A DNA stretch of 64,000 bases, taken from Azotosporobacter soli (GTDB taxonomy: Bacteria; Bacillota; Negativicutes; SG130). The DNA lies in assembly GCF_030542965.1 (NCBI RefSeq), contig NZ_JAUAOA010000001.1:248001-312000 (forward strand), written 5' to 3'. A model generated the notes under the pieces. It saw only the letters and a list, made by a program, of their open reading frames with translations, did not search any database and was not told where the DNA came from. The position numbers and the translations under genes were made by a program. Every line of letters begins with the position of its first letter. Position 1 is the stretch's first letter. Positions 27,943 to 54,962 of the stretch are shown piece by piece.

Positions 27943-29457
27943 ATGAGTGAACGCGTCGCGGTCATCGACCTCGGGTCGAACTCGGCCCGCCTGATCATCA
28001 TGCAAATTTATAAAAACGGCGCTTACAATCTGATTTATCATCAAAAAGAGGCGGTCCGGCTCAGTGAAGGGATCGCCCAGGACAATAAGTTGCAAAGCGC
28101 GGCGATGGAGCGCGCGCTCCGCTCGCTGCAGACCTTTTCGCACATGTGCCGCCTCTTTAACGTCGACAAGACGCTGGCGGTCGGCACCGCTGCCGTTCGC
28201 AACACCAAAAACGGCGGCGCTTTCGTTGAACGGGTACGCAAGGAGACCGGCATCCCGCTGCGCGCGGTCAGCGGCGAGACAGAAGCAAAACTCGGTTATC
28301 TCGGCGCGATCAACACGCTCGATGTAGAAAACGCGCTGCTCTTCGACCTCGGCGGCGGCAGCACCGAGCTGACGCTGATCAGGAACCGCAAGGCGGAACA
28401 CATGATCAGCCTGCCGTTCGGCGCGGTCAATATGACCGAACGATTCCGCCTGAACAACCGCGCCTCCGAAGGACAGCTGGACGAACTGCAGGCATTCTTT
28501 CGCAAGCAGCTGAATCAGCTGCCCTGGCTGAAGAACCTCAATGTGCCGCTGCTCGGCGTCGGCGGCACCGCCCGGACGATCGCGAAGATGGATCAGCGGC
28601 GCAAGAATTATCCGTTTCCCAAACTGCACAATTATCGTATGGGTTCGATGTCGTTTCGCGCCTTATGGCAGGACGTCTCGAAGCTCAGCTTCGCGCAGCG
28701 CCGCAAAGTGCCGGGCCTCGGCGGCGAACGCGCCGACATCATCCTGGCCGGCATCGGCATCGTCAAAGCGCTGCAGGAAAAAGCGCACGCGCAGCAACTC
28801 ATCGTCAGCGGCTGCGGCGTCCGCGAAGGCCTGTTCCTCCAATATCTTCTCTCGCGCAGCGGACAGAGCGAAGTCGTGGCGAATCCGCTCGAACACAGCA
28901 CGAAAAACACTTTGCTTCTATATAATGGCAACATCTCGCATGCCGAGCATGTCACCAAACTGGCCGATCAGCTTTTTTGCGGCTGCCGCGATTTTTTCGC
29001 GCTCGACGATCGCAGCCGCCTGATGCTGCGCACGGCCGCCTTGCTGCATGACACCGGCATCAGCATCAATTATTACGACCACTATCGCCACAGCACCTAT
29101 CTGGTGGAAAACGCGCGCCTTTTCGGTCTGTCGCACCGCGAACAGATGCTGGCCGCGGTCATCACCGGCTGGCATCACGGCCCGGCGTTCCGTTTCGACC
29201 ACAACCGCCTCTACCATCAGTTCCTCGATGAGGCCGACTGGCAGACCGCACGCAAACTGGCTTTGCTGCTGAGCATCGCCGAAAGTCTCGATACGACGCA
29301 AATGACGCTGGTCAAGAACGTCAACGCGCAAATTGAAGCGGGACGTCTCAGCCTACAGCTCGACGCCAGCGCCCCGACGCCGCTCGAACAGGATGCCGCA
29401 CTGCGCTTTTCCAAATGGCTACGCCGCGACTTTCAGCTTGAGCTGGCGTTGAAATAG
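27943..29457 (+). CDS. ppx: Exopolyphosphatase / pppGpp phosphatase (Ppx/GppA) with HD domain
   Basis: A 504-residue canonical Ppx/GppA enzyme: VIDLGSNSARL at the N-terminus, AVGTAAVRNTKNG, LFDLGGGSTELTLI, and GVGGTARTIA, then an HD domain with LLHDTGISI and WHHGPAF. It hydrolyses terminal phosphates of polyphosphate or converts pppGpp to ppGpp. GGGGTG precedes the ATG. It is transcribed divergently from the degenerate paralogue and ppk, with about 150 bases between. Followed by a strong terminator. Confidence 0.93.
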   Translation: MSERVAVIDLGSNSARLIIMQIYKNGAYNLIYHQKEAVRLSEGIAQDNKLQSAAMERALRSLQTFSHMCRLFNVDKTLAVGTAAVRNTKNGGAFVERVRKETGIPLRAVSGETEAKLGYLGAINTLDVENALLFDLGGGSTELTLIRNRKAEHMISLPFGAVNMTERFRLNNRASEGQLDELQAFFRKQLNQLPWLKNLNVPLLGVGGTARTIAKMDQRRKNYPFPKLHNYRMGSMSFRALWQDVSKLSFAQRRKVPGLGGERADIILAGIGIVKALQEKAHAQQLIVSGCGVREGLFLQYLLSRSGQSEVVANPLEHSTKNTLLLYNGNISHAEHVTKLADQLFCGCRDFFALDDRSRLMLRTAALLHDTGISINYYDHYRHSTYLVENARLFGLSHREQMLAAVITGWHHGPAFRFDHNRLYHQFLDEADWQTARKLALLLSIAESLDTTQMTLVKNVNAQIEAGRLSLQLDASAPTPLEQDAALRFSKWLRRDFQLELALK

Positions 29458-29470
29458 AAAGAAAAATCTG

Positions 29471-29513
29471 AATAGGACTTGAGGCTATAAACTCGGCCTT
29501 AAGTCCTATTTTT
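29471..29513 (+). terminator. Terminator after ppx
   Basis: Stem aataggacttgagg / ccttaagtcctatt with 12-base loop and following ttttt. Confidence 0.88.
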
Positions 29514-29516
29514 CGC

Positions 29517-29544
29517 TTGACATTTCTTTCATTTCTGTTAAACT
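29517..29544 (+). promoter_or_regulatory. Candidate promoter of the pel operon
   Basis: TTGACA at 29517-29522 and TAAACT at 29539-29544 with a 16-base spacer, about 110 bases upstream of the c-di-GMP riboswitch core. Confidence 0.6.
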
Positions 29545-29644
29545 CTAAACAAGATACACTATTTTTTACAAATATGCCTCCGAAAGTACCGAAGTTTTTC
29601 AGGCCTGGATGTCGGATTTTATCCGTCCAATGCGCCGCCTCATC

Positions 29645-29740
29645 TTCGCAGTGTTTATTCGGGAGGGCAAACTTGGCGAAAGCCAAGGGCGCAAAGCCAT
29701 GGGTCTACCGACAAATGTCTACGACTGCCAGGTTGCAACA
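29645..29740 (+). ncRNA. c-di-GMP-I (GEMM-I) riboswitch aptamer
   Basis: Conserved core blocks in order: agGGCAAAC, ttgg-cGAAAg-ccaa (P2 with GNRA tetraloop), GGgCGCAAAGCC, atGGGTCTA, a variable P3 arm, then actGCCAGGTTGC, the tetraloop-receptor side and P1 strand. This pattern closely matches clostridial GEMM-I aptamers. It lies about 80 bases before the first pel gene. The overlapping terminator at 29721 suggests that ligand binding prevents termination, i.e. c-di-GMP turns the operon on. Confidence 0.93.
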
Positions 29741-29775
29741 GTAATCGCTGTTGCCATACCGGCAGTCGTTTTTTA
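29721..29775 (+). terminator. Riboswitch-controlled terminator
   Basis: Outer stem acgactgcc (29721-29729) / ggcagtcgt (29761-29769), inner stem ggttgcaacag / ctgttgccatacc, then tttttt. The 5' arm reuses the conserved aptamer block actgccaggttgc, so aptamer and terminator are mutually exclusive. Confidence 0.88.
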
Positions 29776-29819
29776 ATTTATTTAACGCTGGTTACCATAA
29801 TTTGAAACGAGGTGATTCC

Positions 29820-30806
29820 ATGTTTTTTCGCAGCGCCTGTTGCACGCTTCTTTTCTTGCTTTGCATCGCTGCCTTGCCTTCGCTGGCGCGCGCGCAGCAA
29901 ACGCCGCCCGATTATCCGCTCGAAATGGCGCGCCTGCTCGGACAACTGCGCAGCTATAGTCAGGAACGCAACGCAACGTTTCAGCTTTTGGGCAACGGCA
30001 GTCTCGATTTATTCGCGCCGGAGACGCTGACGCCGTCCGCACGGACGCTAGTCAATACCAGTCTCGACGGCATCCTGATGGAAAGCTATTTTTACGGCTG
30101 GGAGATGAAGGACGACGAGGCGACGCCGCCGGAGGCGCGTCTCGCCTGGTCGTCCGCTTTGACGGCCGCGCAGCAACTGAATCAACCGCTCTTCAACATC
30201 GATTACTGCCGTTCGACTGCGGCAGTCGCAGATTCCTACCAGAAAAACCGACAAGCCGGTTTCGTCTCACTGGCCGCCCCCAACCGCCAGTTAACGAAGC
30301 TGCCGCAAAAAACGCAGCGCAGCAATCGCAGCGACGTCAGCCGTCTCGCCCAGGCGAAGAACTTTCTCGTGCTGTTGAATCCGGAAGAATTCGCCAGCCG
30401 CAGTCTTTATCTCGCCGCTTTGCGCGCCTGTGCATTCGACCTTCTGATCATCGATCCGACCTTCAACAGCTCGCCGCTGACGCCGGATGAAGTCCGTTCG
30501 CTCAAACGCAAGCCGCAGGGCGGCCAGCGTCTGGTTCTCGCTTATCTGAGCATTGCGGAAGCGGAAGATTACCGTCCCTATTGGCAGAAAGACTGGAAAC
30601 AGTCGCCGCCCGCCTGGCTGGTGGCAGCCAATCCCGATTGGGTTGGTAACTTCAAGGTCCGCTACTGGCAAAGCGGCTGGCAGCAGTTGCTCTTCGGCAG
30701 CCGCAATGCGCAGCTCGACAGGATTCTCTCCACCGATTTTGACGGCGCGATGCTCGACGTCGTGGACGGCTATCAGTATTTCCTCGACAACCCCGACGTG
30801 CAATGA
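29820..30806 (+). CDS. Secreted GH114-like hydrolase (PelA hydrolase-domain counterpart)
   Basis: A 328-residue exported protein with a signal peptide (cleavage after ARAQ, about 26). The body resembles the endo-alpha-1,4-polygalactosaminidase/TM1410 barrel (GH114), the fold of the PelA hydrolase domain: DGILMESYFYGWE, FDLLIIDPTFNSS, VLAYLSIAEAEDYRPYWQ, DFDGAMLDVVDGYQYF with a late acidic DxxD pair. In proteobacteria this domain is fused to the deacetylase in PelA; here it is separate. It would trim or release GalNAc-rich Pel polymer. ATG 29820 follows AACGAGGTG. First gene of the riboswitch-controlled operon. Confidence 0.85.
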   Translation: MFFRSACCTLLFLLCIAALPSLARAQQTPPDYPLEMARLLGQLRSYSQERNATFQLLGNGSLDLFAPETLTPSARTLVNTSLDGILMESYFYGWEMKDDEATPPEARLAWSSALTAAQQLNQPLFNIDYCRSTAAVADSYQKNRQAGFVSLAAPNRQLTKLPQKTQRSNRSDVSRLAQAKNFLVLLNPEEFASRSLYLAALRACAFDLLIIDPTFNSSPLTPDEVRSLKRKPQGGQRLVLAYLSIAEAEDYRPYWQKDWKQSPPAWLVAANPDWVGNFKVRYWQSGWQQLLFGSRNAQLDRILSTDFDGAMLDVVDGYQYFLDNPDVQ

Positions 30807-30839
30807 AAATAATCTCTATGTAATAGGAGCGTTCCACAC

Positions 30840-33002
30840 ATGAAAATACTTGTCACCGGCGGCTACGGCTTTATCGGCTCGCAGCTGTGCGAAAAACTGA
30901 TTCAGGAAAAGCACGACGTCTTCGTGATCGACGATTTATCGAGCGGTCTGGCGCGCAACCTCACCTTGCCGCATGTCTTTTACCGGCGCAACATCGCCGA
31001 TCAGGAATGTGAAGCGATCTTTCAGAACAACAACCTCGACATCGTGATCCATCTGGCCGCCAAGGTCGACGTCGCAGAATCGGCCAAAGCGCCGTACGAA
31101 GATTGCCAATCCAACATCTTAGGCTTGGTCAATATGCTGCGTCTCTCACACCAGTATAAGGTAAAAAAGTTTCTCTTCATTTCTTCGACTGCCGTATACG
31201 GCGATTCGGCCGAACTCACGCTTTCGGAAGCCAGCCCGCTCAAGCCGCTCTCGCTCTACAGCATCAACAAGGCCAACGGCGAAGCCTACTGCCGCATCTG
31301 GCAGGAGCAATACGGTCTGGAGACCGTCATCCTCCGTCTCTCTAACGTATACGGCCCCCGCCAGGGCAGCTTCGGCGAGGCAGGCGTCATCTCGAGTTTC
31401 TTAAAACAAATCGCAGCCGGACAGAAGCTCGTCATTCACGGCGACGGTCAGCAATGCCGCGATTATCTCTATGTGGACGACGCGGTCATGGCCATCTACT
31501 GGGCGGCGGTAAAAATCGTCCGCCAGCCTGTCATCAACATCGTCAGCCGCCAATCGCACAACCTGCTCGAAGTCGTGAAGCTGCTCGGAAAGCATTACGA
31601 CCTGCCTGGCCTGACGCACGAAAAGTATCGCACGTTCGACATCTGCCGCGCTTCGTTCGACAACAGTGCGGCCAAAGAGCAGCTCGGCTGGACGCCGCGC
31701 TACACGCTGGAAGAGGGCCTTGAAAAAACCTGCCTCTGGCAGGCGGAACAGGCACTTCTTGCGCCGGAAAAAGCGCCGTCCCCGCCTTCATTCCTCTCCG
31801 TTTACCGGCCTTATCTGGAAAACGCGACGCTCTTCGCGCTGATGGCCTGCCTCTCCTTCTTCAATCTGCACGGCGGCCTGCTCGATTTTCGTCTGGGCAT
31901 GGACTACAACTACATCTATATCGCGGTGATGGGTCTGCTCTACGGCAAACAGCAATCGATGCCCGCAACGGCGCTCTCCGTACTGCTCTTTTGCTACAGC
32001 ATGACGGCCAAAGGCGCCGATCTCGTCACGCTCTTGTATCAGGTGCAATACCTGACGCATCTGGCAGTATACCTGGCGCTCGGCGTGATTACTGGCTACG
32101 TCACCGACCGCCGCCGCCACATCCTGGCCGATAAGGAAAACGAACTGGAACGCATCGCCGACAAGCATCGTTTTCTGGAAAAGATGCATTTGGAATGCGT
32201 CCAGGTCAAAGACGTCCTTTATAACCAGATCGTCAATTCCGACGACAGCATCGGCAAGATCTACAGCATCATCAAGGATCTCGACAGCTTGGCGCCGGAA
32301 GACATCTACACGTCCTCGATCGACGTTCTGCAGCGCATCATGCGCTGCGGCAGCGTTGATATCTATACTGTGAACGCCGATTCGTCTTTCTGGCGGATCA
32401 AGGTGCGCGCCAAAGACGATGCGCCGTATCTGGAAAATTCGATTCGTGTCGCCGATTCGCCGTATGCGCAAAAAGTCATGCAGACGAAAGGCGTTTTCGT
32501 GAACCGGCATTTCGCCGGCCCGTCGATGGCCGCGGCAATCCGCTATCAGAACAAGACGATCGCCATCGTGCAGCTTTATAACCTCCCGTTTGAAAGCATG
32601 ACGCTGCATCAGAGCAACCTGCTGCGCGTCACCGCGCTCTTGATCGCGGACGCATTGGGCAAAGCGCACAGCTACGAATTGAGCAGCAGCGAAAAGCAAC
32701 AGGTCAGCGGCACGCAGCTTTTGCTGCCGGACGCGTTTGCCAAGCTGCAACAGGAAATGACCAAACGCAGCCTGAAGCACAACCAACCCTGCACACTGCT
32801 GCGCCTGCGCGATAAGCGCGAGGATCTGGTCGCCCTCTACCACTCGCTGGCCAACGTCATCCGCGCCGAAGATTACGCCGGGCTCGATCCGTCCGGTCAC
32901 GTCCTGCTGCTGCTGCAGAACGTCACACGCGAAATGCTCCCCGTCGTCCAGGAACGCCTGGCGCAAAAAGGATTCCACACCATAGAGATGGCAGGTGCTT
33001 AA
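30840..33002 (+). CDS. pelD: Fusion of UDP-sugar epimerase and PelD-like c-di-GMP receptor
   Basis: A 720-residue fusion. Residues 1-310 are an extended-SDR sugar epimerase (GGYGFIG at 7-13, Y140-x3-K144), likely UDP-GlcNAc/GalNAc C4-epimerase. About 320-425 hold four membrane helices, then a coiled-coil linker, a GAF domain (about 460-605) and a degenerate GGDEF domain (about 625-720). There the catalytic motif is replaced (PSGHV) but an upstream RxxD I-site, RAED at 675-678, is kept at the correct spacing. PelD binds c-di-GMP with this site and activates PelF/PelG synthesis. Fusion of precursor supply to the receptor in one chain is unusual. Confidence 0.9.
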   Translation: MKILVTGGYGFIGSQLCEKLIQEKHDVFVIDDLSSGLARNLTLPHVFYRRNIADQECEAIFQNNNLDIVIHLAAKVDVAESAKAPYEDCQSNILGLVNMLRLSHQYKVKKFLFISSTAVYGDSAELTLSEASPLKPLSLYSINKANGEAYCRIWQEQYGLETVILRLSNVYGPRQGSFGEAGVISSFLKQIAAGQKLVIHGDGQQCRDYLYVDDAVMAIYWAAVKIVRQPVINIVSRQSHNLLEVVKLLGKHYDLPGLTHEKYRTFDICRASFDNSAAKEQLGWTPRYTLEEGLEKTCLWQAEQALLAPEKAPSPPSFLSVYRPYLENATLFALMACLSFFNLHGGLLDFRLGMDYNYIYIAVMGLLYGKQQSMPATALSVLLFCYSMTAKGADLVTLLYQVQYLTHLAVYLALGVITGYVTDRRRHILADKENELERIADKHRFLEKMHLECVQVKDVLYNQIVNSDDSIGKIYSIIKDLDSLAPEDIYTSSIDVLQRIMRCGSVDIYTVNADSSFWRIKVRAKDDAPYLENSIRVADSPYAQKVMQTKGVFVNRHFAGPSMAAAIRYQNKTIAIVQLYNLPFESMTLHQSNLLRVTALLIADALGKAHSYELSSSEKQQVSGTQLLLPDAFAKLQQEMTKRSLKHNQPCTLLRLRDKREDLVALYHSLANVIRAEDYAGLDPSGHVLLLLQNVTREMLPVVQERLAQKGFHTIEMAGA

Positions 33003-33003
33003 T

Positions 33004-33906
33004 ATGATTACTGCATTGTTTCTCCTTCATCTTTTCCTCATCGCAGCCTATGCGGCTTACAGCCGCCTCTTCCAGCGCGACCACACGAGCCGTTTCCTGG
33101 CGGAACTGGCGCTGCTCAGTCTGCTGCCGTTTTTCGGCTTTTTGCTTCTGCTTTTACTGCGCATCAGCCACAAGAGCAACGCGCAGCAAAAAGAAGATCT
33201 CTCCGCACTGTATGGCGAGTTCAAGAAGACGCGCAGCGTCGCGAAACTGGGTCGCCTGCAAAGCGCCGACATCATTCCGGTCCAGGATCTGCTGCTCTTT
33301 GAAGATCCGTTGACCCGGCGCAATGCGCTGACGCGCGTCATCAAGCAGGACCAGCTCGACAACCCCTCCATCCTGCTCGATGCGGTACGCGACAAGGACA
33401 CCGAAATCGCGCATTACGCGGTCTCGATCATGACGCACCGCATCGCGAAACTGGAACTCAAGTTGAATCGCCTGCGCAAGAAAGTAGGCAAGACGTCCGA
33501 TGATCTTTTGCTGCTGAAAAAGTATGCCGCACTGTTGAAACACTATCTGAAAGACACGATCCTCGACGCAAACAGTCGCAACAAATGGCGCGCGGAATAT
33601 GAAGCCGCGCTCGACGCGATCCTGCGCAAGGAAAAAAACGAAAAACTTTACTGGGTGGAACGCATCGAACTGGCGCTGAGCATAAAGGATTACCACAGCG
33701 CGCGCAAGTACGGCCTGGCTTTCTTCAAACGTTTTTCCGATCAGGAAGAGGCGTATCTTCTTTATATGCGCTACTGCCACCTGACCGGGCGTTACACGAT
33801 GCTGCACCGTACCCTGCAAAGACTCAAATCGTCCCGTATCCCTTTCAGCCCAACCGCGCTCGAGACCGTCCGTTTTTGGGATCAAGGAGGTCAACATGCC
33901 TCATAG
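33004..33906 (+). CDS. pelE: PelE-like membrane/TPR protein
   Basis: A 300-residue protein with two N-terminal membrane helices (about 1-20 and 32-55) followed by a long cytoplasmic helical region with TPR-like repeats (YWVERIELALSIKDYHSARKYG, EEAYLLYMRYCHLTGRY). PelE has this two-helix plus TPR design and bridges PelD to the PelF/PelG synthase. The ATG is one base after the pelD stop, and its 3' end overlaps the next gene by 11 bases. Sequence similarity in this family is low, so the call rests on architecture and position. Confidence 0.8.
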   Translation: MITALFLLHLFLIAAYAAYSRLFQRDHTSRFLAELALLSLLPFFGFLLLLLLRISHKSNAQQKEDLSALYGEFKKTRSVAKLGRLQSADIIPVQDLLLFEDPLTRRNALTRVIKQDQLDNPSILLDAVRDKDTEIAHYAVSIMTHRIAKLELKLNRLRKKVGKTSDDLLLLKKYAALLKHYLKDTILDANSRNKWRAEYEAALDAILRKEKNEKLYWVERIELALSIKDYHSARKYGLAFFKRFSDQEEAYLLYMRYCHLTGRYTMLHRTLQRLKSSRIPFSPTALETVRFWDQGGQHAS

Positions 33907-35707
33907 GAATATGTTTCTTGTTCTCTTGCTGGTCTTTTCGCTCGGTCTCTTCTTCCAATACAATCGCAGCGACGGATTTCTCCGTCTCTTCAGCAATCAG
34001 AACACGCAGCTCTTGAGCGGCCAGGCCAAAGAAGAACCGCCGCTCGCGTCCTCTTTGCCGCGCGAGCGCTATCTGATTGTGTACGACCCTGCCGACCCGG
34101 ACAGCCTCCGCTTGGGCGCCAATGTGGAGCAAACCTTGAAAAGTCTAAAAAAAGACTACCTCATCCAATCCGCACGCCAGTCTTTGCCGGAACCCTTTCC
34201 CGCGGTCAACGGCATCATTCTTGTCAGCGGCGATTTGGAAGCGACCGTTGACTTCGATCGCTTTCGCGCGCAGGTTGATTCCGGTCTGACGCTGTATCTT
34301 CTGACGACGCCGGTCTTAAACGACAAGCTCCTTGCCGTACAGACGGAGCTCGGCATCGCTGCCGTCTCCCCCGCGGCCAACGCACCGGGCGGCAGACTGC
34401 TCGACAATCTTCTGCTCGGCGGCAAAGATTTCTCTTTGCCGGGCGGCGTCTTCGACAACAGCTCGCTCGGCGTTCAGTTGACGCCGGAAGCGACCGCGCA
34501 CATGCTTGCGCTTGACAATACGCCGCTCGTTTGGGAGCGCGCTGCCGGTCGCGGCCATTATGTCGTCTTTAACGGCAGCACACTCTCCGGCAAACAGCAG
34601 CGCGGTCTGCTGACCGGCCTGCTCTCGCTCGGCCAGCCGCTTTTCGCCTATCCGGTCGTCGCAAGCAAGACCATGTGCATCGATGACTTTCCCGCGCCGA
34701 TTCCGGAAGGAAAGCACGCCAAGATCTATGACGAGTACCGTCTTTCGACGCCCGAGTTCTTCCGTCAGATCTGGTGGCCCGACATGCTGAGTCTCGCGGC
34801 GAAATATGATATCCGTTACACCGGTCTGATCATCGAGACTTACAACACGCAGCAGAGCGCGCCGTTCGCACCGGAGCAGGACGGCCAGCTGATGCGCAAC
34901 AACCTGATCCTCTACGGGCGCGAGCTCTTGAAAAGCGGCGGCGAACTCGGCGTGCACGGTTACAACCACCAGCCGCTGATCACAGACTTCAACCCGCAGT
35001 ATTCTGACTACACGCCGTGGCCCGACAAAGCGTCGATGGCGGCAAGCCTGAGCGAAGTCCGGCGCTACGTGAAAGAAGCGTATCCTGAATACCAGCTCAA
35101 GACCTACGTACCGCCCTCGAATATGCTGAGTCCCGAGGGACGCCAAGCACTGACCGAAGCGCTGCCCGACCTTGCGATCATCGCTTCGGTCTCGATCGGC
35201 GATCCGGGTCTGCGCAACACCTATTACCAGGATTATAAGCGCGCGGCCGACGGCATCCTCGAGATGCCGCGCCTCAGCTCCGACTACAACCGCCATCCGG
35301 ACGAGGATTGGGCAATTCTGAACGGCATCACGTATATGGGCGTCTTCTCACATTTCGTCCATCCCGACAATATCTTCTATCCCGAAAATGAACAGCGCAG
35401 CTGGCGCGATATGTACGAAGGCCTCGATTCGCTGCTAAAGATGGTACAGAAGAAATACGCCTGGCTGCGCAGCTGCACGCTGTCGCAAAGCGGCGAATAC
35501 TTCAGCGACTATCTCGCGCTCGACTATCGCCTCGTCCCGAGCGATGACGGCCTCGACATCTATTGCTGGGGCTTTCGCCAGGATGCCTGCTTTGTCTTGC
35601 GCAGCGCGAAGAAAATCCGCAGCGCCAGCGGCTGTTCTTATCAACGGATCGATGAGCAAAGTTATCTGATTACTTTGCAAGCCACGCAAGCCCATCTCGC
35701 GTTTTAA
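33896..35707 (+). CDS. pelA: PelA-type polysaccharide deacetylase (DUF2194-like)
   Basis: A 603-residue membrane-anchored exported protein: an N-terminal helix (5-21), a flavodoxin/GATase-like region (about 55-250), then a deacetylase barrel with metal and catalytic motifs CIDDFPAP (D263, D264) and GVHGYNH (H354, H358). This matches the partial de-N-acetylase part of PelA, which generates cationic Pel. The N-terminal hydrolase domain of proteobacterial PelA is absent here and is found as the operon's first gene. The 3' end has a beta-rich domain. Overlaps pelE by 11 bases. Confidence 0.87.
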   Translation: MPHRNMFLVLLLVFSLGLFFQYNRSDGFLRLFSNQNTQLLSGQAKEEPPLASSLPRERYLIVYDPADPDSLRLGANVEQTLKSLKKDYLIQSARQSLPEPFPAVNGIILVSGDLEATVDFDRFRAQVDSGLTLYLLTTPVLNDKLLAVQTELGIAAVSPAANAPGGRLLDNLLLGGKDFSLPGGVFDNSSLGVQLTPEATAHMLALDNTPLVWERAAGRGHYVVFNGSTLSGKQQRGLLTGLLSLGQPLFAYPVVASKTMCIDDFPAPIPEGKHAKIYDEYRLSTPEFFRQIWWPDMLSLAAKYDIRYTGLIIETYNTQQSAPFAPEQDGQLMRNNLILYGRELLKSGGELGVHGYNHQPLITDFNPQYSDYTPWPDKASMAASLSEVRRYVKEAYPEYQLKTYVPPSNMLSPEGRQALTEALPDLAIIASVSIGDPGLRNTYYQDYKRAADGILEMPRLSSDYNRHPDEDWAILNGITYMGVFSHFVHPDNIFYPENEQRSWRDMYEGLDSLLKMVQKKYAWLRSCTLSQSGEYFSDYLALDYRLVPSDDGLDIYCWGFRQDACFVLRSAKKIRSASGCSYQRIDEQSYLITLQATQAHLAF

Positions 35708-35720
35708 GGAGTGTCACCGC

Positions 35721-37145
35721 ATGAAAATTTGTCTGATTGTCGAAGGCAGTTACCCGTACGTGACCGGCGGCGTAGCCTCCTGGATTCAAATGCTGATCCA
35801 GGGCATGCCGGAACACGAATTCGTCATTTATTCGATCGCGGCGGAAGCAAAGGAGCGCGGGCGCTTTCAATATAAGCTGCCCGCCAATTTGACAGAAGTC
35901 CGCGAACTGTTCTTAGACAGCATTCTCAAACTGAAGACGCCGCAGTTGAACGCCTGCTCGCTGAGCCGCCAGGAGATCGACTGTTTATCGGCGCTGATTC
36001 GCAGCGACGGCGTCTTGGATCTGGCAAAGCTGCTGCCAATTTTTCGTTCCGCACGCACGCGTTCGGCGCTCGATATCTTTATGAGTTTCGATTTTTTTGA
36101 CGCGATCAAAGAAGCGTACGAGGAAAAATACAGCGATTTGCCGTTCACCGATTTTTTCTGGACGATCCGCTCGATGCTGCTGCCGCTCTTTTACTTGTTG
36201 CAGCAGGACGTTCCCGAAGCCGATCTCTATCACAGCGTCGCAACCGGCTACGCCGGCGCAGTCGGCAGTCTCGCCTCCGTCTTATACGAAAAACCGTTCA
36301 TCCTCACCGAACACGGCATTTATTCGCGTGAGCGCGAAGAGGAATTGTTGAAAGCGACCTGGGTAAAAGAAGACTTTAAAGACTTATGGATTTCCTATTT
36401 TTACAGCCTCTCGCGTTTGACCTATGAGCGGGCAACAGCGGTTTACACGCTGTTTGAAAAAAATGCGGAAATCGAACGCTATTTAGGCTGCGCGCCGGAA
36501 AAGATCCGAGTCATCCCCAACGGAATCGATGTGGAAAAATACGCGGCACTGGCAAAAAAAGAATCCGGCGGACCGCTGACGATCGGCACGATCGCGCGCG
36601 TCGTGCCGATCAAGGACCTCCTGACGATGCTGCGCAGTTTCGCGCTGGTACAAGAGCAGCTTCCGGATGCCCGCTTCCTGATCGTCGGCCCTACCGATGC
36701 CGACCCCGAATATTATCAAAACTGTCTGGAACTGGTCGAGAACCTAAACCTTTCGAACATCGAATTCACCGGCCGCCAGGACGTAGCGCCGTATCTGCAG
36801 GAAATCGACATTCTCGTGCTGAGCAGCATCAGTGAGGGGCAGCCGCTGGTAATCCTCGAAGCGTTCGCCTGCGCGACGCCCTGCATCGCGACCAATGTCG
36901 GCGCTTGCAGCGAACTTATTTATGGCGCTGGGGACGATTTGGGCAAAGCCGGTTATATCGTACCGCTGCTTGACTATGAGACGATGGCCAACGCCATCCT
37001 CCGCTTGGCCTCGGACCAGGAACTGCGCAGGCAAATGGGGCAAAACGGCTTTGCGCGCGCAGCCAGCCTCTACACCAAGGATCTGCTGATTCAACGTTAT
37101 AAAAAAGTTTATGAAGAAAATGGGATGGTACTATGGCAGGAATAG
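35721..37145 (+). CDS. pelF: Pel polysaccharide glycosyltransferase PelF (GT4)
   Basis: A 474-residue cytosolic GT-B glycosyltransferase. The N-terminus CLIVEGSYPYVTGGVASWI is diagnostic for PelF; VIPNGIDVEKY and the EX7E-type SEGQPLVILEAFACATP are GT4 donor-site motifs. It polymerises GalNAc-type residues from UDP-sugars. GGAG precedes the ATG. The gene overlaps pelG by 13 bases, consistent with a tight PelF-PelG complex. Confidence 0.96.
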   Translation: MKICLIVEGSYPYVTGGVASWIQMLIQGMPEHEFVIYSIAAEAKERGRFQYKLPANLTEVRELFLDSILKLKTPQLNACSLSRQEIDCLSALIRSDGVLDLAKLLPIFRSARTRSALDIFMSFDFFDAIKEAYEEKYSDLPFTDFFWTIRSMLLPLFYLLQQDVPEADLYHSVATGYAGAVGSLASVLYEKPFILTEHGIYSREREEELLKATWVKEDFKDLWISYFYSLSRLTYERATAVYTLFEKNAEIERYLGCAPEKIRVIPNGIDVEKYAALAKKESGGPLTIGTIARVVPIKDLLTMLRSFALVQEQLPDARFLIVGPTDADPEYYQNCLELVENLNLSNIEFTGRQDVAPYLQEIDILVLSSISEGQPLVILEAFACATPCIATNVGACSELIYGAGDDLGKAGYIVPLLDYETMANAILRLASDQELRRQMGQNGFARAASLYTKDLLIQRYKKVYEENGMVLWQE

Positions 37146-38596
37146 GCTTTGAATTAAAGAAACTCTTTAACAAGACCAGTACCGTTGGCTATCTGATGGC
37201 CAGCTTTTACACGGCGATCGTCACGCTAGGGCCGTTCATGCTGGCCACGCTGATGATCCTGGCGATCCAGCAACTGATGACGCTGATGGATGCCTCTTAC
37301 TACAGCAGACAACTCTATCTCGGTTCCATCGTCTATCCGTTCATCTTCTCGCAGATCGTCTCGAGCGGCTTTTCGATGCTGATCACCCGTTATGTCGCCG
37401 ACCGTCTCTTCAATGAACAGTATGAAGAGATCATCCCCTCGCTCTTCGGCATCCTCGCTCTTGCCCTCGCGCTCGGCGCTGTGCCGGCTCTGCTTTTTCT
37501 TTGGAATTCGCCGCTGCCGTTGCTGCTCAAAGTCCTTACCTATCTTTTATATATGGAACTGATCATCGTCTGGATTCAGGGCGTCTATCTATCGGCCTTA
37601 AAGGATTATCTCAAGATCATCTTTTCCTATGCCGCCGGTACCGCAACCGCCGTTTTCCTTGCCTTCGCCGCCTTATACCTGCTGCCGGATCAGGACAGCA
37701 TGCTGCTCGGCATACTGTTTGCCGTCTGCAGCGGCGTTTTTGTCATTCTCGCGCTGCTGCTCTTTTACATCTTGCAGTTTTTTCCGTTACGCGGCGGCCA
37801 TTATTTTGCCTTCCTGCATTATTTTGACGATCACACCCGTCTTTTCGTGACGAATTTCTGCTACACGCTCGGCATTTACACCGCCAACTTTTTCTTGTGG
37901 CGAAGCGACGCGGCGCAAATCGTCGCGGGTACGTATCGTTTTTCGCCGACCTATGACGTGGCGACATTCTACGCCTTTCTTTCGATCATGCCGACGATGG
38001 CGGCCTTTGTCGTCTCCGCCGAACTTGTCTTTTACGATAAATACAGGGTGTATTTCAGCGCCATCACCGGCAAAGGAAATTATCAGGAAATCGAGACAGC
38101 CCGCCAGGATATGCTGCAGACGATGTGGTCGGAAATCCGCAACCTGTTTGAATTTCAGTTGGTCTTCTCGCTTCTCTTTCTGGCGCTGGGCGATTTTTTG
38201 TTACCCGGCATCGGCATCACGCACGAGTCGATCGACATTTATAATATCCTCATCCTTGGTTCCTTTGCGATCGGCATGGCGCAAATCATCCAGATCATCC
38301 TGCTTTATTTTGATGCGCGTCGCGAGGCCTTGCTCATTTCTCTTTTGTTTTTCACCAGTAACTTCGCACTCAATCTGATCGGCCTTCATCTGCCAACGAA
38401 TCTGCAAGGTTTTCCCTTTTTCCTCTCCAGCATGCTGACCGTGTCCGTTTCGATCTATCTGCTTCATTCCTATGCCAAACGCCTCGATTATTTCGTCTTC
38501 AGTTCGCAGCCGATGTTCACACAGACCCTGCCCGGACTACTGCAGCGCGTTTGTCGCGCTCTCGGCGCAAATTTATCCGGCAACTCGAATCGATAA
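37133..38596 (+). CDS. pelG: Pel transport membrane protein PelG
   Basis: A 487-residue, roughly 12-helix membrane protein of the MATE/Wzx-like superfamily. The N-terminus MAGIGFELKKLFNK is the characteristic PelG start. It forms the inner-membrane path for the polymer made by PelF and regulated by PelD/E. Start overlaps pelF by 13 bases. No truncation or missing segment was noticed. Confidence 0.95.
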   Translation: MAGIGFELKKLFNKTSTVGYLMASFYTAIVTLGPFMLATLMILAIQQLMTLMDASYYSRQLYLGSIVYPFIFSQIVSSGFSMLITRYVADRLFNEQYEEIIPSLFGILALALALGAVPALLFLWNSPLPLLLKVLTYLLYMELIIVWIQGVYLSALKDYLKIIFSYAAGTATAVFLAFAALYLLPDQDSMLLGILFAVCSGVFVILALLLFYILQFFPLRGGHYFAFLHYFDDHTRLFVTNFCYTLGIYTANFFLWRSDAAQIVAGTYRFSPTYDVATFYAFLSIMPTMAAFVVSAELVFYDKYRVYFSAITGKGNYQEIETARQDMLQTMWSEIRNLFEFQLVFSLLFLALGDFLLPGIGITHESIDIYNILILGSFAIGMAQIIQIILLYFDARREALLISLLFFTSNFALNLIGLHLPTNLQGFPFFLSSMLTVSVSIYLLHSYAKRLDYFVFSSQPMFTQTLPGLLQRVCRALGANLSGNSNR

Positions 38597-38611
38597 AAGG
38601 AGCCTCTATTT

Positions 38612-40492
38612 ATGCGTGTAAAGAAATTTGTTCCTCTGCTTTGCCCCTTGCTCTTGCTTAGCGCTTCGCCTCAAGTATTCGCCGCGGATGCCGTCGGCAT
38701 CGTTGAAGAAGCGCGCGGCGACGCCGCCGCGCTGCGTCAGGCGCGAACCGCGCTCGAAGATGAGGCGCAGCGCCAGGCCGATATCCGCTCCGCCAGAGCG
38801 GCGCTGCAGCAGGCGGAAGTTCAGCTGCGCGCCGCGCTCGACGCCGAGGCGAAAGCGCTCGAAACGCTGCGCCTGTCTGAAGAAGCCGTCCGCAAAGCGG
38901 AGCAGGGCCTGCTCGAAGCGACAAGCAATGTCGAGGCGGCCAAGCTCGCATTGCAATCGGCGCAAAGCGCCGAAAAAGAGGCGCTCGCCGAACTTTCCGC
39001 TGCGCAAAACGCAGCGACGGCGGCCGAAAACGAAGCCCGGCGCGCCGACGCACAGGTGAAGCGCATCGAATCCGAGAATGCGCCCGCATCCCTGACCACC
39101 TTTGAAGGCGCCAATCTCGACGCTCTTTTGGCGCAGGCCGAAGAAACGCGTCGCCGCGTCGAGCTTGCCAGCGCTCACGCCGCAGGCAAATGGCAGACGG
39201 CCGATCGCTTATCCGCCGCCGTTGAGCGGGTCGAAGTTCGGGCGGATGCGCTGACGCAAAAACGCGAAGCCGCCGACGAGGCGCTGCAGGAAGCGCAGGA
39301 TCGCCTTCTGAGCGCCGCCGATTTGCTGCGCGATGCCAAGAATGATAAAACGGATGCTGCCCTTGCGCTGCCCGAAGCACAAAAAGATACGCTCGCTGCC
39401 CGCACGGCACTCGCGGAAGTAAAAAGCAATCTGGCTTTGCTCGAAAACCCGCCGCCGGATAAAAACGTCTATTATTCCGTTAGCAGCAAATATTACTATG
39501 CCAAGCGAAGCGACGGTCAGGATTTTTATCAGTGGCTGCAGGGTTATGATTTTTCTTATTCGAGTCATGGCGTCGACTACGGTCTGACGAGCAATTACGT
39601 CATCTCCAACAGCAGCCTCGGTTCGCGCGTCGCAACGTTTTCCGACACGCAGCTTTCCATCGGCCACACCAATAAAAACAAAGACTATCCCGTCCGTTAC
39701 ACGCTCGACGTCACGTTGCCGACCGGCAAGGCAGCACTGAGCGCACGCGAGACAAACACTCTTATCGAAGAAGATCTTGCGCCGCTGAACAACTTCGGCG
39801 AAGGCTGGCAAGTGACGCCGGGCATCAGCATCAGCCGCCCGATCGGCAAGGAAGATAATTGGACCTTCGGCACTCGTTTCAATATCGCCTGGCAATATCA
39901 GCCGCTCAAAGACGATCCTACCTCCGTCACGTTGCCCGGCCGCCAGTTGGAAACCTTTATCCGTTGGCAGCATCTCGGCGCAAAGCAGCAGACGCTGGCG
40001 GAACTTCTGCATAGCTCTTCGTCAATGACGCAGCAAAACAAACTTGATTATTACCGGGAAGGCTCTGAGTGGGATTTCAAGCTGGTGCATAATCGCAGCC
40101 TCTCAAAACGCGACAATCTGATGCTCTATGGACGCGCCACCTACCACCAGGCAGATGCTTATGCTCCCGGCATCGTGCAAAGCGATGCCAATACCGGTTT
40201 GCACAGTTACGCGACCGGCGCGGGTTGGAGTCGCGCGCTTTCGCCGACGCGCACGCTGCGTCTGAACCTCGACTATCTGAAACGCAACGGCAGCATCGTC
40301 ACCTTGAATCTGCCGACCGCGATCGGCAATCGCAGCAAATTCAGCTACGGCATCGGCTTCGACTGGTCGCTGCCGCATGAACGCAGCCTGTCACTGGACT
40401 TGCAAAAATTCTGGCTGCATACCTCGAGTGTGAGCGACGCACCGAACTATGACGGCATCGCCATGCAGTTCAAATTCTCTTCCGCCTTTTAA
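38612..40492 (+). CDS. Outer-membrane beta-barrel with long periplasmic coiled coil (candidate Pel exporter)
   Basis: A 626-residue protein: signal peptide (1-24), about 260 residues of Ala/Glu/Arg-rich heptad coiled coil (26-285), a proline hinge (ENPPPDKNVYY), then about 330 residues of alternating beta-strands typical of a barrel, ending MQFKFSSAF with the terminal Phe of an outer-membrane insertion signal. Proteobacterial Pel systems use PelB (TPR repeats plus barrel) and PelC here; neither is present. Position at the end of the pel operon and the combination of periplasmic arm plus barrel suggest a functional replacement. An OmpM-like tether is the main alternative, but no SLH domain is seen. 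Confidence 0.8.
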   Translation: MRVKKFVPLLCPLLLLSASPQVFAADAVGIVEEARGDAAALRQARTALEDEAQRQADIRSARAALQQAEVQLRAALDAEAKALETLRLSEEAVRKAEQGLLEATSNVEAAKLALQSAQSAEKEALAELSAAQNAATAAENEARRADAQVKRIESENAPASLTTFEGANLDALLAQAEETRRRVELASAHAAGKWQTADRLSAAVERVEVRADALTQKREAADEALQEAQDRLLSAADLLRDAKNDKTDAALALPEAQKDTLAARTALAEVKSNLALLENPPPDKNVYYSVSSKYYYAKRSDGQDFYQWLQGYDFSYSSHGVDYGLTSNYVISNSSLGSRVATFSDTQLSIGHTNKNKDYPVRYTLDVTLPTGKAALSARETNTLIEEDLAPLNNFGEGWQVTPGISISRPIGKEDNWTFGTRFNIAWQYQPLKDDPTSVTLPGRQLETFIRWQHLGAKQQTLAELLHSSSSMTQQNKLDYYREGSEWDFKLVHNRSLSKRDNLMLYGRATYHQADAYAPGIVQSDANTGLHSYATGAGWSRALSPTRTLRLNLDYLKRNGSIVTLNLPTAIGNRSKFSYGIGFDWSLPHERSLSLDLQKFWLHTSSVSDAPNYDGIAMQFKFSSAF

Positions 40493-44775: not shown

Positions 44776-44801
44776 CGAATCAAACAATTCTATAGGTAAA
44801 C

Positions 44802-44888
44802 ACAGCTGGGGGAGCCGCAAGGCTGAGAGAAAACGAATGTTTTCGACCCTTTGAACCTGATGTGGTTAGGACCACCGTAGGGAAGCTG
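44802..44888 (+). ncRNA. TPP riboswitch (THI element)
   Basis: Core blocks gctgggGGAGCC, ggCTGAGAg, a P3 hairpin (aaaacg/cgtttt-like), gACCCtttgAACCTGAt, then tggttaggaccaccGTAGGGAagctg. It is followed by a terminator at 44926, so high TPP should stop transcription of the thi operon. Confidence 0.96.
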
Positions 44889-44925
44889 CCAGCGCGCCTG
44901 GGTCAGGGAATCACGAAACGCTGTC

Positions 44926-54093: not shown

Positions 54094-54210
54094 TCCTCTC
54101 ATCTCCCAGGATTTCTCCTGCTGGAATTGGCACCACTGCAAAAAAAGTTTTTTTCTTTTGCCGGTTGCCGGGCGTCATCGGGCCAGTCCCTCGACCTCTC
54201 TGGATAAGAG
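54094..54210 (-). ncRNA. SAM-I (S-box) riboswitch
   Basis: Read on the minus strand: cttatccaGAGAGGtcGAGGGActGGCCCgATGAcgCCCGGCAACCggc, an A/T-rich P3 hairpin, then ggTGcCAATTCCagcag and aGAtGAGAgg closing P1. All S-box landmarks are present. SAM binding should favour the downstream terminator and shut off metY. Confidence 0.96.
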
Positions 54211-54355: not shown

Positions 54356-54511
54356 GAGATGACGTCGTTGGGAGAGACCCCGCGGGGCACCGAAGGAGTA
54401 AGCAAAAACTCTCAGGTAAAAGGACCGGCGACAGATCGAGCTCTGGAGAATACACCGCTTGGTGTTACCGAAGGAGAGGCCGTTTGGTCTAAATCTCTCA
54501 GGTAAAAGGAC
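54356..54511 (+). ncRNA. Tandem glycine riboswitch, copy 1 (two aptamers)
   Basis: Aptamer I: ggGAGAGAcc ... cACCGAAGGAGtaAGCAAAAaCTCTCAGGtaAAAGGACcg. Aptamer II: ctctGGAGAAtac ... tACCGAAGGAGag ... TCTCTCAGGTAAAAGGACagagg. The pair is followed directly by a terminator and then no gene for about 170 bases. Confidence 0.95.
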
Positions 54512-54795: not shown

Positions 54796-54962
54796 AGGAT
54801 GAAGTCACCGGGAGAGATCCTGACAAGGACGCCGAAGGAGCAGCAAACACTCTCAGGCAAAAGGACCGTTGACCGACTGCACTCTGGAGAAGGCATCATG
54901 CATCGATGCTACCGACGGGGAAAGCTTCCACGCGAAGCAAATCTCTCAGGTAAAAGGACAGA
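54796..54962 (+). ncRNA. Tandem glycine riboswitch, copy 2 (two aptamers)
   Basis: Aptamer I: cgGGAGAGAtcc ... gCCGAAGGAGcAGCAAAcaCTCTCAGGcAAAAGGACcg. Aptamer II: actcTGGAGAAgg ... tACCGACGGGGAAAG ... CTCTCAGGTAAAAGGACagagg. It precedes a terminator and three micro-genes, which it should switch on with glycine. Confidence 0.95.

Follow-up and report, generated by a model that had tools for sequence, protein, structure and literature searches.

Control of the exopolysaccharide Pel is known mainly from Pseudomonas, where it works with protein sensors. In the pelABCDEFG system of P. aeruginosa, cyclic dimeric GMP (c-di-GMP) acts both on transcription and on the receptor PelD, the transcriptional arm being the protein FleQ (PMC12564702). 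The closest prior art for control by RNA comes from Geobacter, in which GEMM-Ib riboswitches that sense cyclic GMP–AMP (cGAMP) stand before polysaccharide genes (PMC6456294), so that a surface polysaccharide under riboswitch control is as such no novelty. No report of a c-di-GMP riboswitch before pel was found in searches of the open-licence PMC literature, a scope outside which most subscription papers lie, and the word 'riboswitch' is absent from the Gram-positive pel papers examined, including PMC7112168. In this study, a stretch of 64,000 nucleotides from Azotosporobacter soli (contig NZ_JAUAOA010000001.1, positions 248,001 to 312,000; hereafter the window) was analysed, in which a c-di-GMP-I (GEMM-I) riboswitch very probably (about 85%) gates a Bacillus-type pel operon. 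As in P. aeruginosa, the signal would act on transcription and on PelD, with an RNA in the place of FleQ. The leader of the operon contains the following features (window coordinates).

29656–29740, forward strand: c-di-GMP-I (GEMM-I) aptamer, RF01051, 73.2 bits (gathering score 35), E 1.9e-12
29721–29769, forward strand: intrinsic terminator hairpin, −30.7 kcal/mol, with a T run at 29769–29774
29809–29816, forward strand: Shine–Dalgarno-like GAGGTGAT ahead of the ATG at 29820, read from the sequence
29517–29544, forward strand: promoter-like site TTGACA-16-TAAACT with TG ahead of the second hexamer, 10 of 12 consensus positions
29470–29511, forward strand: terminator-like hairpin 3' of the Ppx/GppA-type gene, a single stem of 17 pairs, −25.6 kcal/mol
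Ending at 29457: upstream Ppx/GppA-type gene

The identity of the aptamer is established by the covariance search. When the whole window was scanned with Rfam cmscan, the RF01051 match was full length (model positions 1–87), with all pairs standard and none broken, and its score lies well above the gathering score. A first-pass annotation had placed a GEMM-I element some 80 bases upstream of the operon's first gene; the distance from the end of the aptamer to the first ATG (29820) is 79 bases. The equivalents of G20, A47 and C92, which we take to be the numbering of the nucleotides that contact c-di-GMP, are retained in the aptamer (a G immediately preceding GCAAAC, as well as a CGCAAA block), and the C of GGUUGC sits at model position 83. 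The same annotation had described a terminator with a 5' arm taken from the aptamer, and its coordinates were reproduced exactly, the arm consisting of the last 20 nucleotides of the aptamer (29721–29740). The 151-nucleotide leader (29640–29790) folds with −58.1 kcal/mol, 5.0 standard deviations below dinucleotide shuffles, none of 200 of which was as stable.

Because the aptamer and the terminator share the strand 29721–29740, the two folds are mutually exclusive, and the anatomy is that of an ON switch. Compared with the free fold of the leader, constrained folding gave −40.8 kcal/mol with the aptamer pairs enforced and −31.2 kcal/mol for the terminator alone. In transcripts reaching up to 29760 the best fold is more stable than the aptamer by no more than about 3 to 4 kcal/mol, a gap small enough for the aptamer to form and bind before the terminator; completion of the terminator arm then tips the balance towards the terminator by about 16–17 kcal/mol. 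We propose that RNA polymerase starts near 29550 and that the aptamer is made first. In the absence of c-di-GMP, ACGACUGCCAGGUUGC, the 3' strand of the aptamer helix P3, would be captured by the downstream GGCAGUCGU, forming the terminator before the first gene, whereas with c-di-GMP bound this strand would be locked in the aptamer, the terminator would come too late and all seven genes would be transcribed. c-di-GMP would then bind PelD translated from the same mRNA, at its I-site, rendering the PelF synthase active. The second messenger would thus be used twice, on amount and on activity, in a coherent feed-forward arrangement with AND-like control.

The leader also looks like the start of a separate transcription unit, given the hairpin at 29470–29511 and the promoter-like site behind it. 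The hairpin forms the boundary between the Ppx/GppA-type gene and the pel unit, and the site at 29517–29544 is proposed as the pel promoter; a promoter scan gave this one site, with 0.5 expected by chance. Behind the leader, seven genes on the forward strand fill 29820–40492, no two neighbours lying more than 33 bases apart.

29820–30806, forward strand: secreted GH114/GH191-type hydrolase with an apparently circularly permuted barrel, PF03537 49.2 bits
30840–33002, forward strand: PelD with an N-terminal GalE-like epimerase domain, PF01370 201.7 bits, I-site R675, D678, R706
32995–33906, forward strand: PelE-like protein, so assigned from its position and its homologues at this place in other pel loci
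33896–35707, forward strand: PelA_DA-type deacetylase (DUF2194), PF09960 421 bits, PDB entry 9ZAU at E 2.7e-72
35721–37145, forward strand: PelF glycosyltransferase, NF038011 387.6 bits (cut-off 100)
37133–38596, forward strand: PelG inner-membrane exporter, PF16933 441.5 bits (cut-off 29)
38612–40492, forward strand: protein of 626 residues with a coiled coil and a beta-barrel of about 16 strands, AlphaFold2 predicted local distance difference test (pLDDT) 82.4, candidate outer-membrane Pel exporter

The first-pass annotation had called this a pel operon, and PelD, PelA_DA, PelF and PelG are indeed identified in it; the gene next to the riboswitch, taken there for the first pel gene, is instead a GH114/GH191-type hydrolase and not a core synthase gene. 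The entry 9ZAU is the PelA_DA of B. cereus (PMC13254593). The PelE-like protein had no match in Pfam and NCBIfam searches, and phmmer found it in the same place in the pel loci L120, L059, L071, L118, L080, L074 and L121. As had been anticipated, the operon probably encodes its own c-di-GMP receptor: R675, D678 and R706, an RxxD I-site, are invariant in all 26 aligned GalE–PelD proteins, namely that of the window and 25 from a set of 80 named pel loci. In B. cereus, R363, D366 and R395 of PelD are needed for c-di-GMP binding (dissociation constant, KD, 103 nM) and for biofilm (PMC7112168), and from the motif and its near-equal spacing we infer that these are the counterparts of the three residues. 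A PDB search with the GAF/GGDEF part alone returned no PelD match, and a profile search with the whole protein returned only epimerase- and dehydratase-type enzymes among the best 60. The window's own genome has 35 GGDEF matches and, for the FleQ domain (PF06490), none.

Whether the arrangement recurs was surveyed in the class Negativicutes with 380 genomes, including that of the window (G000). PelG exceeded the cut-off in 59 of these genomes and RF01051 matched in 77, the latter under stricter filters by which weak matches were lost. A covariance model built from eight aptamers of the window's own genome, that of the window included, was applied to 58 sources, namely the window and 57 Negativicutes pel loci, and gave strong matches in two of them, the window and locus L120 of genome G009, which belongs to a second family of the class. 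In this and the following counts, weak matches were set aside beforehand (L044, E 2.2; L142, L141 and L151, E 0.21 to 2.3; L216, E 0.92), and many of the loci stop at contig ends, where a missing aptamer means little. As far as pelG, the genes of locus L120 are ordered as in the window. A barrel gene follows pelG (L192), and the locus has a promoter of 12/12 consensus and a 16-pair terminator that has 20 nucleotides in common with the aptamer; its fold gap grows from 2.8 kcal/mol at the end of the aptamer to 18.7 kcal/mol with the terminator. In the window's own genome, two more GEMM-I aptamers stand in tandem at C16:64993–65302, with starts 217 bases apart and terminators that do not overlap them.

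Outside the class, the 80 named pel loci, many of which are themselves from Negativicutes, were searched with 10-kb flanks. Strong aptamer matches occurred in five (L059, L071, L074, L080 and L118), and that of L070 lay just past the flank. In L118, from an uncultured member of the Clostridia, tandem aptamers precede a co-directional run comprising an open reading frame (ORF) for which Pfam gave only a weak match below the threshold, an HD-domain protein that is possibly a c-di-GMP phosphodiesterase, and PelD to PelG. A hairpin script found the first aptamer to be followed by an overlapping terminator and missed the second, the T run of which is broken, while a simple terminator scan detected neither of the tandem terminators; at L118:207–440 the sequence consists of two near-identical aptamer–terminator units. 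The prediction of an ON switch is thus supported by the shared strand and, judging by sequence, by the same design before pel in L120 and, in tandem, in L118. Elsewhere the aptamers lead pel-side genes. In Paenibacillus they precede a GH114 gene (L059, in tandem) and a DUF4832 gene (L177), and in the Paenibacillus group three genes for beta-helix-like surface proteins (L071:506–3373, assigned by Pfam, and L217:12896–15778 and L218:2567–5368, assigned by sequence). The L080 aptamer adjoins a DUF4832 gene, and the gene led by the L074 aptamer, again in Paenibacillus, had no match in Pfam and PDB searches. Among 27 further stretches from Paenibacillaceae, four of which are longer versions of loci already counted, two had matches, and in a phylum-wide sample none of six pel loci, two of them short, had an aptamer. 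GEMM-I elements near pel by coordinates in L065, L081, L072 and L085 were not counted, as these stretches did not contain the pel loci. In 40 genomes, with 156 GEMM-I elements in 199.6 Mb, 0.64 genomes with such a linkage would be expected and six were seen (P 3e-5), an estimate biased by covering 40 of the 80 loci, including five already known to have a match. The survey of pel clusters therefore revealed a layout that recurs and yet is uncommon: the switch directly leads only three pel operons, those of the window, L120 and L118.

Several points weigh against a gated operon. The terminator advantage of about 16–17 kcal/mol is more than nanomolar binding can repay, and ON switching must therefore be kinetic. 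The switch is missing from 56 of the 58 class sources, some of which are loci cut by contig ends, and genome G010 has the same operon order without an aptamer there, even though it has eight GEMM-I elements elsewhere. In addition, ligand binding, the direction of switching, a single transcript and the activation of PelD are steps that we infer. It may also be asked whether the linkage is one of chance, a functional GEMM-I merely happening to precede pel. The rarity in the class would fit this; however, five genomes of the class have PelG as well as GEMM-I (G000, G009, G010, G038 and G161), and in two of them GEMM-I leads pel, whereas a same-strand GEMM-I at a distance of 500 bases or less would be expected in about 0.002. 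As the analysis set out from the window, a fair comparison leaves it out and has one of four genomes, against about 0.0014 expected (calculated by hand with the same formula), and coincidence is the least probable explanation of all those considered.

A riboswitch that governs the hydrolase gene only, with the pel synthase genes read from a promoter of their own, would resemble the aptamers of Paenibacillus and a Clostridiaceae genome that stand before single pel-side genes and not before an operon (L059, L074, L177 and L080). Both in the window and in G009, however, all genes have the same direction and either overlap or are spaced by 33 bases at most, which leaves too little space for a promoter of its own before pelD, and such a restricted role is unlikely. 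Even less likely is an OFF switch, in which the ligand would promote termination of the pel transcript. GEMM-I OFF switches do exist, such as Cd1 of C. difficile (PMC9262584), and at C2:93838, in the window's own genome, another GEMM-I overlaps a hairpin of far lower stability (−14.8 kcal/mol) to which neither direction can be assigned; in the pel leader, by contrast, the 5' arm of the terminator lies within the aptamer, so that the two cannot coexist, and no antiterminator strand for the ligand to displace was seen. The position that presumably turns to A in cGAMP-type GEMM-I is a G here and in nine of the ten pel-linked aptamers examined, those of L217 and L218 being left out. An aptamer for another dinucleotide such as cGAMP, for which the GEMM-Ib elements upstream of Geobacter polysaccharide genes provide a precedent (PMC6456294), is slightly less probable again than an OFF switch: the choice between c-di-GMP and cGAMP depends on one nucleotide in the binding pocket (PMC9481103), the conserved G argues for the former, and the PelD of the same operon has a c-di-GMP I-site. 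The one exception, a GEMM-I at L080:16641–16723, before a DUF4832 gene beside pel, has an A at the G20 equivalent, like cGAMP-type GEMM-Ib. The reading retained is accordingly an ON switch for c-di-GMP that serves the whole pel operon.

The first gene of this operon looks like a circularly permuted hydrolase of the GH191/GH114 type, as suggested by its sequence and model. Its PF03537 (GH114) match (cut-off 27) covers about half of the profile, and TM1410 and 9ep5 are matched in swapped order, for TM1410 with profile positions 244–328 corresponding to TM1410 61–141 and 32–159 to 148–271. When the halves were swapped, a single continuous alignment with 9ep5 was obtained (35–287 with 50–282), and the score rose from 62.1 to 72.7 bits. 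The AlphaFold2 model (pLDDT 89.9) aligned with these barrels over one half only (154 columns in Foldseek; Z 11.2, root-mean-square deviation (rmsd) 1.9 and 137 aligned in VIA-align), as is expected of a permutation. Many unrelated barrels appear in VIA-align at similar Z, and the family call therefore rests on sequence and Foldseek. Its likeness to TM1410, 9ep5 and the PelA hydrolase domain 5tcb thus extends to half-barrels in sequence and structure, whereas the order of the halves is swapped. Reported GH191 members are alpha-galactosaminidases (PMC12054363), an activity that fits Pel, and we propose that the product takes the role of the PelA hydrolase. Across the 80 named loci 19 ORFs match the gene. 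The permuted hydrolase is kept in pel loci of Negativicutes, being the first gene in the window and the last in Selenomonadaceae.

The last gene encodes a helical hairpin of 250 residues followed by about 16 strands in its AlphaFold2 model (predicted template modelling score 0.64). Foldseek placed the cellulose exporter BcsC first and the PelBC entry 9h80 fifth, and VIA-align gave the polysaccharide porin 4y25 with Z 19.3, rmsd 4.0 and 264 aligned, with CdiB ranking above it; as many barrels match, and CdiB better than 4y25, a function cannot be assigned from the fold by itself. A phmmer search of the PDB gave spurious matches only (nanobodies and a phage connector). The protein belongs to an uncharacterised family encoded directly 3' of pelG in Negativicutes. 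In the 80 named loci 17 ORFs match it, typically directly 3' of pelG, and from this position and the modelled fold it is likely to be the outer-membrane Pel exporter of diderm Firmicutes. In G010, PelG and the barrel protein share one open frame of 1135 residues (L193:171–3578), which is either a fusion or a frame error. The window contains further riboswitches: two glycine aptamers 361 bases apart (54359–54437 and 54799–54878, forward strand), an S-adenosylmethionine riboswitch divergent from them (54096–54210, reverse strand) and a thiamine pyrophosphate riboswitch (44798–44900, forward strand).

Should the proposed wiring hold, one second messenger read by an mRNA and then by the receptor that it encodes would be a clean natural test of coherent feed-forward, and of whether the choice between an RNA and a protein sensor sets the order of c-di-GMP thresholds. 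The affinities are 1 nM for the riboswitch Vc2 and a KD of 7 µM for FleQ (PMC12564702). By analogy, it is possible, though doubtful, that a nanomolar riboswitch responds before a PelD of about 100 nM, unlike micromolar FleQ, and that Bacillota acquired the RNA arm on more than one occasion; the values compared are those of other species (Vc2, FleQ and B. cereus PelD). The gains would be those in Negativicutes, in a Clostridia lineage (tandem) and in Paenibacillus (pel-side genes), and pel would become a riboswitch-wired biofilm regulon. The combination of a Gram-positive-type synthase with an uncharacterised barrel protein would also be a pointer to how Pel crosses the outer membrane in diderm Firmicutes.

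Compared with known systems, the switch adds one more member to RF01051, with an ON design of known type, and the operon follows the Gram-positive type of pel operon, to which parts have been added. The riboswitch has the sequence, secondary structure and ligand-contact nucleotides of RF01051 members, and differs from them in its target, the pel operon. Its exclusive aptamer and terminator resemble those of the GEMM-Ib ON switch of Geobacter pilM, in which the terminator captures the C that pairs with the ligand (PMC9262584); the equivalent C is paired inside the terminator here, whereas the ligand there is cGAMP and the target genes are others. The genes have the order PelD, PelE (here a PelE-like protein), PelA_DA, PelF and PelG, and the I-site, of pelDEADAFG in B. 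cereus ATCC 10987, and a GalE–PelD fusion is known from other Gram-positives (PMC7112168), to which the window adds the riboswitch leader, the hydrolase as first gene and the barrel protein. Where Gram-negative pelABCDEFG has PelB, with tetratricopeptide repeats and a barrel, the window has the coiled-coil and barrel protein. A pel system that reads c-di-GMP twice, through an RNA and through a receptor, would be a new wiring.

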